Part shown: piece after piece, positions 23,954 through 62,207 of the stretch
How positions within the stretch are numbered: the first letter of the stretch is position 1
Layout: the number at the start of each line of letters is the position of its first letter
DNA from: Gammaproteobacteria bacterium
Lineage (GTDB): Bacteria; Pseudomonadota; Gammaproteobacteria; Steroidobacterales; Woeseiaceae
NCBI GenBank assembly: GCA_029861535.1
Contig: JAOTZC010000002.1
Coordinates: 1 to 64,000 of the forward strand
Direction of reading: 5' to 3'
Length of the DNA: 64,000 nucleotides
Translations under genes and position numbers: made by a program
The notes under the pieces: generated by a model
What the model was told of the DNA's origin: nothing
Databases searched by the model: none
The model's input: the letters and a program-made list of their open reading frames with translations, nothing else

Positions 23954-24673
23954 ATGATTCGTCTCGAAAATGTGACGAAACGCTTTCCGGGTGGCCAGGA
24001 AGCGCTGTCTGATCTCGACCTGTCGATCGACAAAGGCGAAATGGTCTTTATCACCGGTCATTCCGGCGCCGGCAAAAGCACACTATTGCGCTTGATCGCA
24101 CTGATCGAACGGCCAACCAGCGGCCAGGTCATCGTGGACGGGCAAAACACAAGTCGCGTGCGTCGTCGCAAGATTCCGGCCTATCGGCGCCAGATCGGCA
24201 TGGTGTTTCAGGATCACAAACTCTTGTACGACCGCAGCGTTGCCGACAACGTTTCACTGCCGCTCGTCATTGCCGGCGTCGGCAATCGTGAGGCCGGCCG
24301 TCGTGTGCGTGCTGCGCTCGAGCAAGTCGGTCTACTTCATAAGGAAAAACGCAACCCGGAAACGCTGTCCGCGGGCGAACAACAGCGTGTCGGTATCGCC
24401 CGCGCGATTGCGACTCGACCAAAATTGCTCATTGCCGATGAGCCAACCGGCAATCTCGATCCGGATTTGTCACTCGAAGTCATGCGCGTGTTTCGGCGAT
24501 TTAACGAGTTTGGCGTGACCGTTTTGATCGCCAGTCACGATATCGACTTGATCGACAAACTTGGCTGCCGGCGAATCGCGCTCGAAAACGGTCAGCGAAT
24601 CCACGATACGCACGAGAGTTTCCACGACGAATCTTTGGTCGTTTCTCCATCGGAGGACAATCCGTGGCAGTGA
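23954..24673 (+). CDS. ftsE: Cell-division ATP-binding protein FtsE
   Basis: ATPase partner of FtsX, controlling septal peptidoglycan hydrolases. In 239 residues: Walker A GHSGAGKST, the signature LSAGEQQRVGIARA, Walker B LLIADEPTGNLDP and switch His in IASHD. The stop overlaps the ftsX GTG start by 10 bp. The C-terminus has an additional tail of about 20 residues after the core domain. Confidence 0.96.
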   Translation: MIRLENVTKRFPGGQEALSDLDLSIDKGEMVFITGHSGAGKSTLLRLIALIERPTSGQVIVDGQNTSRVRRRKIPAYRRQIGMVFQDHKLLYDRSVADNVSLPLVIAGVGNREAGRRVRAALEQVGLLHKEKRNPETLSAGEQQRVGIARAIATRPKLLIADEPTGNLDPDLSLEVMRVFRRFNEFGVTVLIASHDIDLIDKLGCRRIALENGQRIHDTHESFHDESLVVSPSEDNPWQ

Positions 24674-25629
24674 ACCGCCACTCGGACGCGGCGGCACCGG
24701 TTCGTTCGGCAGGCCCCGTGTCCATCTGGTTTCGACGCCACGTAGAAACGGCGACGGGCTCGCTTGGTCGGCTGGCGCGGCAACCATTCGCGAGTCTGAT
24801 GATCGTGCTGGTGATCGGCATCACGCTTGCATTACCGGCCGCATTGAATCTCATCATCAAGAATGCGGCAGCCGTCAGTGGTGCCTGGGATGACGCGCTC
24901 GACTTTTCGGTCTTTCTCGATCGCCAACTGACGTTGAGCGAAGCGGAGGGTTTGGCGCAGCTGATTCGACAGCGTGCCGACGTCGAGGCCGTGACCTTGG
25001 TCTCTGCCGACGATGCCCTTCTTGAGTTCAAACAACAGTCGGGGTTTGGCGATGCAATGGATCAGCTGTCGCACAATCCACTGCCGCATACACTCGTCGT
25101 ACGACCCAGCCCGGCGAACACCGGCCAATCGATGATTCTGTTGCGTGAAGAGCTCGCCAATCTTCCGGAAACTGAACTGGTGCAGGTCGATACCGAGTGG
25201 GTACAGCGTTTTCACGCAATACTTGACATCGTTCGACAGGCGATATTTATTGGCGGCGTTTTATTAGCGGCGGCGATCATCGTCATTATCGGCAATACAA
25301 TTCGTCTCGACATCCAAAACCGTCGCGACGAAATCGAAGTGACAAAACTGATCGGCGCGAGCAATGCGTTTGTCCGCCGGCCGTTTCTCTGGACCGGGTT
25401 TTGGTATGGCCTGCTCGGTGGATTACTGGCGATCGCGCTCGTCCAGTACGGCATTTATTTGCTGCAGCCACCGGTCGCGCGTTTGGCCGGGTTGTATCAA
25501 AGTGGGGCGGCCGTGCTGACGTTCGACTTGGCTGAGGTCGGGACCATCATTGGCATCGGCGTAGGCCTCGGCCTGGTCGGATCGTGGTTTGCGGCCGCCC
25601 GGCACATGCGTCGAATCGAGCCTCGCTAG
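24664..25629 (+). CDS. ftsX: Cell-division permease FtsX
   Basis: Integral membrane partner of FtsE. The 321 residues show a cytosolic N-terminus, TM1 (about 43-62), a periplasmic domain (about 70-195) and three further TM segments ending near 315. The start is GTG at 24664, inside ftsE, giving coupled translation. The mixed order ftsY-ftsE-ftsX-rpoH is conserved in gammaproteobacteria. Confidence 0.95.
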   Translation: MAVNRHSDAAAPVRSAGPVSIWFRRHVETATGSLGRLARQPFASLMIVLVIGITLALPAALNLIIKNAAAVSGAWDDALDFSVFLDRQLTLSEAEGLAQLIRQRADVEAVTLVSADDALLEFKQQSGFGDAMDQLSHNPLPHTLVVRPSPANTGQSMILLREELANLPETELVQVDTEWVQRFHAILDIVRQAIFIGGVLLAAAIIVIIGNTIRLDIQNRRDEIEVTKLIGASNAFVRRPFLWTGFWYGLLGGLLAIALVQYGIYLLQPPVARLAGLYQSGAAVLTFDLAEVGTIIGIGVGLGLVGSWFAAARHMRRIEPR

Positions 25630-25705: not shown

Positions 25706-25734
25706 GGAACCAACGACTGCTGTTAGCACTCTAA
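25706..25734 (+). promoter_or_regulatory. Sigma-E-like promoter overlapping CIRCE
   Basis: GGAAC at 25706-25710 and TCTAA at 25730-25734 are separated by 19 nt, within the spacing of extracytoplasmic-stress (RpoE) promoters. The -10 element falls on the left arm and spacer of the CIRCE operator. E. coli rpoH also has an RpoE promoter. This is by eye only. Confidence 0.4.
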
Positions 25735-25749
25735 GGTGGCGAGTGCTAA
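25723..25749 (+). promoter_or_regulatory. CIRCE operator upstream of rpoH
   Basis: TTAGCACTC, nine bases, then GAGTGCTAA: an exact match to the CIRCE consensus bound by the heat-shock repressor HrcA. It ends 28 bp before the rpoH ATG. hrcA itself is not in the window. Confidence 0.92.
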
Positions 25750-25777
25750 AATAGCTTGTGCCATCGGAGGAGAACGA

Positions 25778-26650
25778 ATGACCGCTACAGTTGCGTCCAC
25801 AAACCATGACCTCGTACTTGCCGGCCCGGTCGGCAGCCTTGACGCCTATATACAGGCAGTAGGCAGCGTACCCGTATTGAGTAAGGAAGACGAGCAAGCA
25901 TTGGCGCACCGCTTCCGCGACGAGGACGACCTCGACGCGGCACGTGACTTGGTCTTCGCACATCTGCGCTTTGTCGTGCACATCGCCAAAGGCTACATGG
26001 GCTACGGACTGCCGCTTGGAGATCTGATTCAGGAAGGCAACGTCGGCCTGATGAAGGCGGTCAAGCGATTCGATCCGGAGTACGACGTTCGTCTGGTGTC
26101 CTTCGCCGTACATTGGATTCGTGCCGAAATTCATGAGTTCGTCCTGCGCAACTGGCGCATCGTCAAGGTCGCGACAACAAAGGCGCAACGCAAACTGTTC
26201 TTTAATCTCCGTAAGAACAAGAAGAGCCTCGCCTGGTTGTCGCATGACGAAACGCTAGCCGTCGCTAAAGATCTCGGTGTCAGCCCGAAAGACGTCACTG
26301 AGATGGAGAAACGCTTGAGTGCGCGTGACGCGCTATTCGATCCGGCACCTGCTGCAGACGACGAGCGAGTATTTTCGCCCGCTGCGTATCTGCCGGCGCC
26401 CGACTCGGACCCGGCAACACTGGTCGAAAAAGCTGACACGTCTGATGACGCGAGCACGCGCATGGCCGAGGCGATCGAGACACTCGATGACCGCAGTCGC
26501 GACATTATCGAAAGCCGCTGGCTGACTGGCGACAAGAAGACGCTGCATGAGCTTGCCGATGTCTATGAGGTATCGGCGGAGCGTATTCGTCAGATCGAGG
26601 CAAACGCGATGAAAAAAATGCGTGCGGCCATGACCACCAGCGCTGCTTAG
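25778..26650 (+). CDS. rpoH: RNA polymerase heat-shock sigma factor RpoH
   Basis: Sigma-32 of the cytoplasmic heat-shock response. The ATG at 25778 follows GGAGGAGAACGA and gives 290 residues. Region 2 contains [24 protein letters not shown]-type sequence; the RpoH box [10 protein letters not shown] is diagnostic of sigma-32. Region 4 ends [18 protein letters not shown]. It follows ftsX after 148 bp that hold the CIRCE operator. Control by HrcA, with a possible RpoE-type promoter, is inferred from these sites. It converges on DUF3465 with 19 bp between. Confidence 0.97.
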
Positions 26651-26669: not shown

Positions 26670-26987
26670 CTACGAGTACGTTTTTCTGCCGTACCGAATC
26701 CAGCCGCCGTCTTCGATTCCTAAAGGGTCGTGGTGCGTCCAGTGCACCAACCCGCCCAGGTCATTGTATTCGTACATGCCGCGAAACGACACGCGATCGC
26801 CCATACCGACAGGGACCCGCTTTGCGAGCTCAATATTATGGGCGATCAGCAGCGACTGCTTGTTGTTGAGACCGATGATAAAGCGTTGATGCCTCGAGCC
26901 GTCATTGTCGTCCAATAACAGCCGACGAATGTAGCCGCTGTCTTCAATCCATTCGCCGGAGTCGGCTTTGCCGTAGTTAGGTTTCAT
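26670..26987 (-). CDS. DUF3465 domain protein, no signal peptide
   Basis: About 105 residues matching DUF3465, a small OB-like family of unknown function. The conserved core is SRHQRFIIGL, LLIAHNIELAKRVP and the highly conserved GLVHWTHHDPLGIEDGGWI. Typical members carry a signal peptide; here the ATG at 26987 gives MKPNYGKADSGEW without one. The only longer frame runs back through the terminator of the OmpA gene, so it is not believable as a secreted start. The gene has only a few bases between that terminator and its start and may depend on read-through. Confidence 0.8.
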   Translation of the reverse strand: MKPNYGKADSGEWIEDSGYIRRLLLDDNDGSRHQRFIIGLNNKQSLLIAHNIELAKRVPVGMGDRVSFRGMYEYNDLGGLVHWTHHDPLGIEDGGWIRYGRKTYS

Positions 26988-26994
26988 CGGCACC

Positions 26995-27028
26995 AAAAAA
27001 ACGCGGCGCCCCATCCGTGGGGCGCCGC
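26995..27028 (-). terminator. Intrinsic terminator after the OmpA lipoprotein gene
   Basis: On the minus strand a perfect 10-bp stem (GCGGCGCCCC, loop ACGGAT, GGGGCGCCGC) is followed by seven T. It begins 23 bp after the OmpA stop and its T-run ends 7 bp before the DUF3465 ATG, so it lies in that gene's leader. Confidence 0.92.
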
Positions 27029-27051
27029 CATTCGTTGCTTTGGCTGTAACG

Positions 27052-27729
27052 CTAACCGGCGGTGACCGGTACCATCGTAATCTCAACGCGGCGATTTGCC
27101 TGGCGACCGGAAGACGAAGTGTTATCGGCAACCGGACGAAGCTCGCCCATGCCGACGGTAATCACACGCTGATTGGAGACGCCCTGCGTCTGCAGGTAGG
27201 TCGCCACCGACGTTGCCCGACGCTCCGATAGGCTCTGGTTGTGAGACTCGCTGCCTGTGCTGTCGGTATGGCCGGCGACCTCGACGACAGTCTGGTCATA
27301 CTCACCCAGTACTTTGCCGACCGAAGTCAGTACGTCGAAGAATGCCGGGCTCAGGTCGGAGCTGTTCGTTGCGAAAGTGACATTGCCGGGCATATTCAGC
27401 GTAATATTGTCGCCAATGCGTGTAACGCTGACGCCTGTGCCTTCGAGCTCGGCGCGCAACTGCGCTTCCTGGCGATCCATATAGTAGCCAATAGAGCCGC
27501 CCGCCAAGGCGCCGACACCGGCAAGAATCAATGCGTGTTGGCGACGCTCAACAGCATCGTCACCCGAGACCAGGCCTACGACGGCACCGGCAGCGGCACC
27601 AATCAATGCGCCCTTGGTCGCCTTGCTGGTCTCTTCTTCCCGCGTATATGGGTCCAGCGTCTGACAGCCCGTTACGAGCACCGCGAATCCGACAACGAGC
27701 GATAACGCCCGTACCGATTTGATATTCAT
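27052..27729 (-). CDS. OmpA-family lipoprotein with glycine zipper
   Basis: An outer-membrane lipoprotein of 225 residues. The signal MNIKSVRALSLVVGF... ends in lipobox LVTGC, with Cys as the lipidated residue. Next come a glycine-zipper region (ALIGAAAGAVVGLVSG and GVGALAGGSIGYYMD, about 45-95), then the OmpA C-terminal peptidoglycan-binding domain with AGHTDSTGSESHNQSLSERR. It resembles YiaD/Pal-type anchors. Two adjacent ATGs exist; the second, 27729, is better spaced from AAAGGAC. Confidence 0.9.
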   Translation of the reverse strand: MNIKSVRALSLVVGFAVLVTGCQTLDPYTREEETSKATKGALIGAAAGAVVGLVSGDDAVERRQHALILAGVGALAGGSIGYYMDRQEAQLRAELEGTGVSVTRIGDNITLNMPGNVTFATNSSDLSPAFFDVLTSVGKVLGEYDQTVVEVAGHTDSTGSESHNQSLSERRATSVATYLQTQGVSNQRVITVGMGELRPVADNTSSSGRQANRRVEITMVPVTAG

Positions 27730-27849
27730 CATTCTGTCCTTTAATTGCCTGCGAAGTTTACGAGCGAATTGTACCCAATTACTGGCTGAACAAATCCTGA
27801 AGTACGTCACGCTTATGTAGAATAAACGGCCCGGATCAGGGACCCCGTC

Positions 27850-60496: not shown

Positions 60497-60976
60497 CTAG
60501 TCGCGAGTCGTAGGTTGGGGGCGCTTACGATCCTTCATGCGGTCCCGGGCGCGTTGCCGTTGCGCCGGTGTCAGATTCCGCCAACGATCTCTGAGCTCGA
60601 TTTGTCGATCGCGGCTCATGTCATGGCGGAAGCGCCGGAAATTTTCGCGAATTCGACGCTGTTGATCCACCGGCAAGCTGCTGTAAATTTCCCAGCGGTC
60701 TCGGATCTGGTTGCGGCGGTCAACAGACAGGTCCCGCCAACGCTTGAAACGCGTTTGCGCTTGCTGGCGCTGATCCGTATTCATATTCAACCAGCGATCG
60801 GCGCCGGTTGCGAGACGCTGCTGGCGCTCAAGCGGCAATCCGTCCCAATTGTCGGCGAACTGACCGAGTACTCGTTGCTGTTGTTCCGTTAAGCTATCCC
60901 AGGCGACCCCATCGTCTGCAATAGCGGCACCGAACGCGAGAACGGCAACGGCTGTAAATATCAATCTAGCTTTCAT
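60497..60976 (-). CDS. DUF3106 exported protein
   Basis: A 159-residue protein with a signal peptide (cleavage after AIA, near 22). The mature part consists of repeated short helical units with W-x-x-L-(S/T/P) and Q-x-R spacing: WDSLTEQQQRVL, WDGLPLERQQRL, WRDLSVDRRNQI, YSSLPVDQQRRI, WRNLTPAQRQRA. It is strongly basic. This matches DUF3106, usually the last gene of an ECF sigma operon. The start 60976 overlaps the preceding small gene by 11 bp; a longer frame is not needed. Confidence 0.88.
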   Translation of the reverse strand: MKARLIFTAVAVLAFGAAIADDGVAWDSLTEQQQRVLGQFADNWDGLPLERQQRLATGADRWLNMNTDQRQQAQTRFKRWRDLSVDRRNQIRDRWEIYSSLPVDQQRRIRENFRRFRHDMSRDRQIELRDRWRNLTPAQRQRARDRMKDRKRPQPTTRD

Positions 60977-61214
60977 CGTCTTTCTCCATCGATTCTTTGC
61001 CTTCCGGCACGGGATCGATCCGCTCATCGGACTCAACCGCGGTCTGTTCAACCTGTTCGTCAAAAACTAGCCACTCTTCGTCCGATTCCTCCCACATACC
61101 CAAGTACTCTAAAAACTCAAGCTCCGGTACTTCGTCGTCTGCAGCAAATGCTGCAGCGCAGATTGCGAACAATATTCCTGGTAATAGTGTCGCGAGTTTG
61201 TACCTACCCGACAT
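60966..61214 (-). CDS. Small acidic exported protein of the ECF operon
   Basis: An 82-residue protein with a signal peptide (MSGRYKLATLLPGILFA..., cleavage near AFA). The mature part is very acidic: DDEVPELEFLEYLGMWEESD and a tail rich in D and E. The ELEF plus aromatic pattern is also seen in the neighbouring anti-sigma-like protein. The gene overlaps both neighbours by 11 bp. Function unknown. Confidence 0.7.
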   Translation of the reverse strand: MSGRYKLATLLPGILFAICAAAFAADDEVPELEFLEYLGMWEESDEEWLVFDEQVEQTAVESDERIDPVPEGKESMEKDDES

Positions 61215-61602
61215 TGTCTGGCGAATCCAGTTCAGCCATATCAATCCAGCTGTAAAACTCAAGCTCCTCAATCATTTCGAGGCTGTCACTGCCAAGCAGT
61301 ATTTCGAAATCACTGTCCGTTGATTCCAGTGCGACCGGAAAATCGGGGACGCCGGGTCCACGTAACATTACGACAGCAATCACCGCTGCGGCCGCAAGTC
61401 CGCCAGCCGGCATCCAGCGCATCCACCGCTGACCCGATTGTGCCGGGGAAACCTCGGCCAGTGCTGCCTGACGCCTCTGGTTGAGCTTCGACAACGTTGC
61501 CGCGTCAATACGCTCAACGCTGTCTTCAAACAAATCTTTCGCACTTTGTGCGAATTGTTTGTCTCCCGTCTGTTTCGGGTCGTTATCAGTTGGCGTGTTC
61601 AT
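61204..61602 (-). CDS. Anti-sigma-like membrane protein (DUF3619-like)
   Basis: A 132-residue protein. The cytosolic N-terminus (about 1-60, with LNQRRQAALAEV) is followed by one TM helix (about 65-82, MPAGGLAAAAVIAVVML) and a short acidic periplasmic tail ending MIEELEFYSWIDMAELD. The position right after an ECF sigma gene with ATGA overlap suggests it holds the sigma factor at the membrane. There is no zinc-binding anti-sigma motif. Confidence 0.75.
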   Translation of the reverse strand: MNTPTDNDPKQTGDKQFAQSAKDLFEDSVERIDAATLSKLNQRRQAALAEVSPAQSGQRWMRWMPAGGLAAAAVIAVVMLRGPGVPDFPVALESTDSDFEILLGSDSLEMIEELEFYSWIDMAELDSPDNVG

Positions 61603-62207
61603 TGCCAGTGTTCTCCCAAAGTTTCCCGCAACGAATGTACTGCGCGAGAGTAGTGTGTCTTTACGCTGCCTTCACTGCACCCCATTGCGACAGCGGTTGC
61701 GGCAACATTTAGTCCCTCAAAAGTGCGCAGCATGAATGCTTCGCGTTGCCGGGTCGGCAATTCGCCGACTGCATGCTCGAGTTTGACCATTGCCTGCTGG
61801 TTTGCCAGCTCCTCATCGGGCGTGCGGCCGCTGGGATCAGGCGCCTCGACGATTGGATCGTAGCTCGAATCATCCTTTGCACCTCGTCCGAACCAGACCA
61901 TCACGCGGTTACGAACGTTTTGACGCCGATGCCAATCGCGAATTCCATTTTGCAGAATCCTGTAGAATAGCGGCGTCCATTCATCGGTGGGCCGCGCCAT
62001 GTAGTTTCGCGCGAGCTTGATCATCGCATCCTGCACCAGATCGAGCGCGTCGTCTCTGTCACGCACCGCAATTTCTGCGATTCGCAGAGCACGTCGCTCC
62101 ACTTCGGCGAAGAACAGATTCAGTTGCCGTTCGGTCTGCAGCGTTTCCGCTCCCGTCGATTGCTCGCAGGGCGACGATACCGCAAAAACACCGACGTAGG
62201 CGCTCAT
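61599..62207 (-). CDS. ECF-type RNA polymerase sigma factor
   Basis: A 202-residue sigma-70 family ECF factor. Region 2 contains RDRDDALDLVQDAMIKLARNY, and region 4 has LPTRQREAFMLRTFEGLNVA followed by MGCSEGSVKTHYSRAVHSLR, a helix-turn-helix. The start is ATG 62207 after GGGAGAG; a short N-terminal extension of about 20 residues precedes the region 2 helix. It heads a four-gene operon whose members overlap by 4-11 bp. The signal it senses is unknown. Confidence 0.9.
   Translation of the reverse strand: MSAYVGVFAVSSPCEQSTGAETLQTERQLNLFFAEVERRALRIAEIAVRDRDDALDLVQDAMIKLARNYMARPTDEWTPLFYRILQNGIRDWHRRQNVRNRVMVWFGRGAKDDSSYDPIVEAPDPSGRTPDEELANQQAMVKLEHAVGELPTRQREAFMLRTFEGLNVAATAVAMGCSEGSVKTHYSRAVHSLRETLGEHWQ

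Follow-up and report, generated by a model that had tools for sequence, protein, structure and literature searches.

In Escherichia coli, control of the heat-shock sigma factor gene rpoH acts chiefly through translation and the stability of the protein, and the rpoH mRNA has an RNA thermometer; this is the textbook model for the heat shock response of Gammaproteobacteria. In the window analyzed here (the whole stretch of DNA, 64,000 nucleotides long), an exact CIRCE precedes rpoH. This locus raises the question of whether the repressor HrcA may control rpoH, as the first-pass annotation had claimed, and through which promoters such control could act.

CIRCE and rpoH in the Window

The pattern TTAGCACTC-N9-GAGTGCTAA was found at positions 25723-25749 with 0 mismatches. 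It is the sole CIRCE match with up to three mismatches in the 64 kb window, and 100 dinucleotide shuffles of the window produced none. The ATG at 25778 lies 28 bp past the end of CIRCE, and the gene that it opens is rpoH according to TIGR02392 (E = 2.8e-119; 397.7 bits, cut-off 323.1). Both the exact operator and its place 28 bp ahead of the sigma-32 gene are as first annotated. The features of this region are the following.

24664-25629, forward strand: ftsX, upstream gene and conserved neighbor (TIGR00439)
25706-25712, forward strand: candidate sigma-E -35 GGAACCA, matching five of the seven bases of the class consensus GGAACTT
25723-25749, forward strand: CIRCE, predicted HrcA operator, exact consensus with 9-bp arms and spacer TAAGGTGGC
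25730-25734, forward strand: candidate sigma-E -10 TCTAA, 17 nt after the -35, overlapping the left arm and spacer of CIRCE
25744-25752, forward strand: candidate sigma-70 extended -10 TGCTAAAAT, made of the right arm of CIRCE and AAT
25766-25772, forward strand: likely ribosome-binding site GGAGGAG, read from the sequence
25778-26650, forward strand: rpoH, heat-shock sigma factor sigma-32, 290 aa (TIGR02392, over cut-off)

The gene order ftsY-ftsE-ftsX-rpoH is the same in the window and in E. coli K-12 (ftsY and ftsE were named by domains and place). In a comparison with the first 80 named loci, the closest RpoH came from a Woeseiaceae MAG (L139; 87% identity). Downstream of rpoH are genes for a DUF3465 protein and a glycine-zipper protein of the OmpA type (26670-27131 and 27058-27837, both on the reverse strand). 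Elsewhere in the window, an ECF sigma factor ORF (61599-62207, reverse strand, inside 61204-62207, reverse strand) matches the RpoE model weakly (E = 2.1e-9) and is followed by a small ORF that by eye has the look of an anti-sigma partner. A repetitive Q/R-rich ORF is located at 60497-61063.

hrcA and Predicted HrcA Targets in the Genome

The window belongs to a Woeseiaceae-like draft genome of 2.57 Mb (71 contigs, 76% complete). The first-pass annotation had named a lack of hrcA as evidence against its claim; the gene was found (E = 1.6e-64), with the C-terminal and DNA-binding domains both above cut-off, and its product matches the solved HrcA homolog 1STZ (E = 1.1e-18). Consensus arms, hrcA in the genome, and conservation in hrcA-bearing relatives (see below), three marks of an HrcA/CIRCE operator, were all observed. 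The genome has two CIRCEs with up to three mismatches, one before groES and the other before rpoH; further copies may be absent from the draft because of its incompleteness and fragmentation. The genome also has rpoE (301.3 bits, cut-off 236.15), with rseA adjoining it.

The gene after hrcA is grpE. No CIRCE was found upstream of hrcA in this genome (L003), in a genome of the same genus (G207), or in one of the same order (G045), the best match having eight mismatches, and a CIRCE before hrcA-grpE in the window's genome was ruled out on this basis. The suggestion that CIRCE be sought at groESL and dnaK was borne out before groES but not at the hrcA-grpE locus. More broadly, the class is mixed in whether hrcA is preceded by a CIRCE (L003; L382-L401): 13 of 20 class hrcA upstreams have it with up to three mismatches and seven do not, with G207 and G045 among the 20, and the window's genus and order are without it. 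HrcA autoregulation seems to be less constant than the predicted hold of HrcA on groES and rpoH.

Two sigma-32-like sequences were found, CTTGAAA-N13-GCCCAT ahead of groES and CTTGAAA-N13-CCCCAC a short way past grpE. The predicted wiring is that HrcA acts on groESL and rpoH, and that RpoH acts on groESL and probably dnaK. This would form a feed-forward loop in which HrcA is predicted to reach dnaK via RpoH only.

Distribution of CIRCE Upstream of rpoH

Among 60 genomes of the order, that of the window included, 59 have CIRCE with up to two mismatches (two sites in 51, one in five, three in three, and none in one). We selected 20 relatives from the order genomes with two sites. In all 20, and in the window's genome (21/21), one CIRCE is before groES and the other before rpoH; in the 20 relatives these copies have 0 or 1 mismatch. 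The CIRCE spacers vary between order genomes.

For the class, 184 Gammaproteobacteria genomes were sampled evenly, of which 173 have rpoH (E <= 1e-60) and 133 have hrcA. Upstream regions were taken for 148 rpoH genes, which come from 146 of the 173 rpoH-bearing genomes, and about 25 lower-scoring matches were left out; G000 and G045 are outside the 148, and both carry an rpoH CIRCE. Within 400 bp upstream of rpoH, CIRCE with up to three mismatches was found in 109 of the 148 (57 exact, 34 with one, 10 with two, and eight with three mismatches). The best match in the remaining 39 has six to nine mismatches, and none has four or five. Mononucleotide shuffles of these upstreams reached three mismatches once in 2960. 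Taken with the 0/100 shuffles of the window, this rules out chance as the source of the rpoH CIRCE. The counts in the order and class rule out that the wiring is a peculiarity of a single genome.

The site and hrcA co-occur. Among genomes with hrcA, 104 of 112 have an rpoH CIRCE and eight lack it, compared with five and 29 of the 34 genomes without detected hrcA (Fisher p = 2e-18, relatedness ignored). On a FastTree phylogeny of RpoH, the fewest changes were 24 for CIRCE and 22 for hrcA. When comparison was confined to well-supported branches, only four independent pairs were available (mean 3.3 agreeing and 0.0 disagreeing; median p = 0.25), too few for this phylogenetically controlled test to be decisive, though it leans the same way. 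Judging from these distributions, a predicted HrcA operator at rpoH seems to be the norm for the sampled Gammaproteobacteria with hrcA, and E. coli seems to be the exception.

Several genomes depart from the general pattern. Two members of one family in which hrcA was undetected (G239 and G123; L058 and L186) have rpoH CIRCE copies with three mismatches, which looks like decay after hrcA loss. The other three hrcA-undetected genomes with an rpoH CIRCE have copies with 0 or 1 mismatch, and, if they are drafts, hrcA may be missing from them by incompleteness alone. Two genomes of another family (G088 and G217; L227, L237 and L210, L240) each have two rpoH genes, one of them with a CIRCE of up to three mismatches (in L240 there are three, all in the left arm); these organisms possibly have one HrcA-gated and one ungated sigma-32. 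Finally, G205 and G069 (L042, L062) are of the same family and have close sister RpoH proteins, and one has hrcA and CIRCE (two mismatches) while the other has neither; L042 retains GGAACTT-N16-TCCAA. These two genomes represent a natural before-and-after pair.

Contigs of named genomes were also scanned for an exact CIRCE ahead of a start codon and an RFVV motif, which gave at least 119 stretches; among the matches listed, rpoH was downstream (E <= 1e-15) in 115 of 119, and L064, L072, L080, and L161 fell short of this threshold. These loci were chosen by exact CIRCE and overlap the class sample in part (e.g., L173 and L052), so they are not independent of it. The titles among the matches listed include Methylocaldum, Methylomonas, Dyella, Rhodanobacter, Arenimonas, Silanimonas, Halioglobus, Thiothrix, Thioalkalivibrio, Rheinheimera, Alishewanella, Granulosicoccus, Alcanivorax, Kangiella, and Woeseiaceae, with named strains in Rheinheimera, Rhodanobacter, Dyella, and Alcanivorax. 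Titles outside the class, again among the matches listed, include Desulfuromonadaceae, a Deltaproteobacterium, a Thermodesulfobacteriota bacterium, and Methylomirabilis. In L163 (titled Kangiella sp. SAG), a second CIRCE-like repeat, tttagcactcatatagacaaagtgctaaa, is directly ahead of the exact CIRCE upstream of rpoH, and this gene may have tandem HrcA sites. L166 is titled as a Klebsiella pneumoniae MAG, probably wrongly: like the other relatives, it has an exact CIRCE before rpoH, with GGAACC where the sigma-E -35 is expected.

Promoter-like Elements Fused to CIRCE

The first-pass annotation missed that the operator overlaps promoter-like elements. The sigma-E promoter consensus has GGAACTT at -35 and TCTnA at -10. 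In the logo of the 109 class rpoH sites, GGAACTT stands 10-16 bases before CIRCE (G54 G65 A73 A69 C69 T61 T48 percent), the CIRCE spacer has T at position 1 (67 percent) and A at position 3 (79 percent), and the three bases after CIRCE are A67 A77 T88 percent; most other flanking positions hold little information. The TC of TCTnA falls in the left arm of CIRCE. The right arm read together with a trailing AAT spells TGCTAAAAT, an extended -10. A sigma-E-like pair was found in 85 of the 109 rpoH upstreams that carry CIRCE, against 5.8 expected by shuffling; its spacer is 16 in 69 pairs, 17 in 12, and 15 in four. It was also found in 14 of the 39 CIRCE-less rpoH upstreams (2.2 expected), and thus the promoter exists without the operator too.

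As a control, we used groES upstreams, of which 82 of 88 have CIRCE with up to three mismatches (one site, in G212, is counted twice as L302 and L333). The rpoH sites differ from the groES sites in GAAC at the sigma-E -35 place (76/109 vs. 2/82, leaving 33 rpoH sites without it), spacer T1 (74/109 vs. 7/82), spacer A3 (87/109 vs. 15/82), and AT at the second and third bases after CIRCE (79/109 vs. 2/82), the Fisher p values for these features ignoring relatedness. Since the groES control differs, these four features belong to rpoH and not to the HrcA operator as such. Many groES sites have a promoter-like cTTGA...ctAt just ahead of CIRCE. Among the named loci listed, 84 of the 109 with a window-like RpoH have GAAC at the sigma-E -35 place, compared with none of the six with a distant RpoH, and AT after CIRCE is likewise found in none of these six.

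In the window, the pair is GGAACCA-N17-TCTAA, an imperfect match to GGAACTT-N16-TCTnA, and a sigma-E promoter here is plausible without being a full match. Woeseiaceae-like rpoH upstreams have GGAACT or GGAACC, in several cases with a 17-nt spacer. The strict sigma-E pattern was also sought on both strands of the genome's own rpoE locus (L402), meant as a positive control, and was not found there, which counts mildly against the sigma-E reading. A promoter scan of the window reported the promoter-like TTAGCA-18-TAAAAT with TG.

A Putative HrcA-Gated rpoH Promoter Region

We consider it likely that 25723-25749 is a working HrcA operator inside the rpoH promoter region, where HrcA would block both promoters and sigma-E would be a second input. 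The part of the first annotation that placed rpoH under HrcA is favored by the presence of hrcA, the exact site, its promoter-like overlap, and the co-occurrence of site and hrcA in the class. What the sequences show directly is the sites, the genes hrcA, rpoE, and rseA, and their conservation and co-occurrence; from these we infer the following sequence of events. The GroE chaperonin would keep HrcA active, such that HrcA occupies CIRCE in unstressed cells. There it would cover both TCTAA (sigma-E) and TGCTAAAAT (sigma-70 extended -10), each of which is partly spelled by CIRCE. Upon heat or protein misfolding, HrcA activity would be lost, groESL and rpoH would be freed together, and sigma-70 would transcribe rpoH. 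RpoH would in turn act on groESL and, probably, dnaK via sigma-32 promoters, and, with HrcA gone, envelope stress could contribute further rpoH transcription through sigma-E. By raising the chaperones, GroE included, RpoH would finally restore HrcA. The chaperonin step has a precedent: in a study of Campylobacter jejuni, HrcA binding is reported to increase with GroE and to decrease upon heating, in agreement, according to that study, with Bacillus subtilis and Chlamydia trachomatis (PMC8533110).

A wider reading is that hrcA-keeping Gammaproteobacteria share a conserved composite rpoH element in which one repressor gates both inputs, because the CIRCE arms supply parts of both -10 boxes; that this is old wiring in the class; and that the sigma-E promoter of E. 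coli is a remnant after the loss of hrcA and CIRCE. We regard the chances of this wider reading as even. If HrcA does gate rpoH transcription in much of the class, a chaperonin-sensed repressor would stand above the sigma-32 regulon in those bacteria, and through it the small HrcA regulon, with two sites found in this genome, would effectively govern the wider heat-shock response. A single 47 bp element (25706-25752) would then receive both cytoplasmic and envelope stress signals, and there would be a concrete hypothesis for what was lost en route to E. coli.

Alternative Explanations

HrcA might repress rpoH through the sigma-70-type extended -10 only, the sigma-E -35 being weak or dead in this lineage and sigma-E taking no part. 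The window's GGAACCA with its 17-nt spacer, the rpoE locus without a pattern match, and the TTAGCA-18-TAAAAT with TG that a plain promoter scan picks up all agree with this explanation. Nevertheless, GGAAC-type -35s are retained in Woeseiaceae-like rpoH upstreams and GAAC in 76 of the 109 class sites, and spacer T1 and A3, which an extended -10 does not need, are conserved as well; we consider a promoter region without sigma-E unlikely. It is far less probable still, and in our view the least credible of the explanations, that CIRCE is a leftover and that HrcA is without control of rpoH in this organism. Operator function is read here from sequence, and leftovers do occur, because five of the 34 class genomes without detected hrcA retain the site, including the copies with three mismatches in G239 and G123. 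The copy in the window, however, is exact and is accompanied by an hrcA with both domains, and all 20 chosen relatives keep the site at no more than one mismatch while the spacer varies.

The remaining alternative is that, as in E. coli, an RNA thermometer in the rpoH mRNA exerts most of the heat control, with HrcA adding little. When the mRNAs were folded alone from -37, the region from SD to AUG was 25% unpaired for the window and 23% for E. coli, and the predicted opening increases slightly with temperature in both; taken by itself, the window mRNA can be drawn with its start region paired to the early coding sequence. This single-sequence fold test has low power and hardly detects even the E. 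coli thermometer, because synonymous permutations were equally closed in 6/60 cases for the window and 5/60 for E. coli. For a consensus fold, 18 relatives were chosen, L029 was dropped (no start matched), and identical rows were merged, giving 16 distinct Woeseiaceae-like mRNAs with that of the window; these have no common SD-AUG structure, and the region is 96% unpaired in the consensus. An Rfam search gave no thermometer family. Its guanidine-II match in the coding region (18 bits vs. a gathering score of 32) was taken as chance. We find it highly improbable that a thermometer is the main control; one may coexist with control by HrcA.

Comparison with Known Systems

Compared with the HrcA/CIRCE systems at groESL and dnaK operons, the site reported here has the same 9-9-9 operator with exact arms and the same repressor family, and groES of this genome has CIRCE too. 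The difference is the target, which here is the sigma-32 gene. Unlike the groES CIRCEs, the rpoH CIRCE overlies candidate -10 elements, and T1, A3, and the trailing AT are kept at rpoH and not at groES.

The nearest precedent is Geobacter sulfurreducens, for which a CIRCE before rpoH was predicted by comparative genomics (Rodionov et al., 2004; PMC545781). The likeness is an exact CIRCE a short way before rpoH. The comparison was made via the six other records with distant RpoH (37-43% identity; three are titled Desulfuromonad-, Delta- or Thermodesulfobacteriota), in which both GAAC and the AT after CIRCE are missing (0/6 each). In the portions of the open-access literature that could be consulted, CIRCE at rpoH is mentioned for G. 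sulfurreducens only, and an earlier mention for Gammaproteobacteria is possible. Within the same portions (including PMC10696704, PMC6085468, PMC11764788, PMC3224663, and PMC10490939), there is no report of CIRCE over a sigma-E promoter.

In E. coli and Vibrio, sigma-E is known to control rpoH. In Vibrio alginolyticus, sigma-E was reported at rpoH by ChIP and EMSA (PMC4890791).

The upstream region of rpoH in E. coli K-12 has GAACTT-N16-TCTGA, with the same spacing as is commonest in the class (69/85); we take this to be the sigma-E promoter called P3. No CIRCE lies over it, in contrast to the hrcA-bearing relatives, in which CIRCE lies over the -10. The window mRNA resembles the E. coli thermometer in the start-to-early-coding pairing that can be drawn for it alone, and differs in that such pairing is not common to the 16 related mRNAs. 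A CIRCE before rpoH (as the Geobacter prediction) and sigma-E control of rpoH were thus already known; as far as the accessible open-access literature shows, the fusion of CIRCE with a sigma-E-like promoter and the occurrence of CIRCE at rpoH across Gammaproteobacteria are new.
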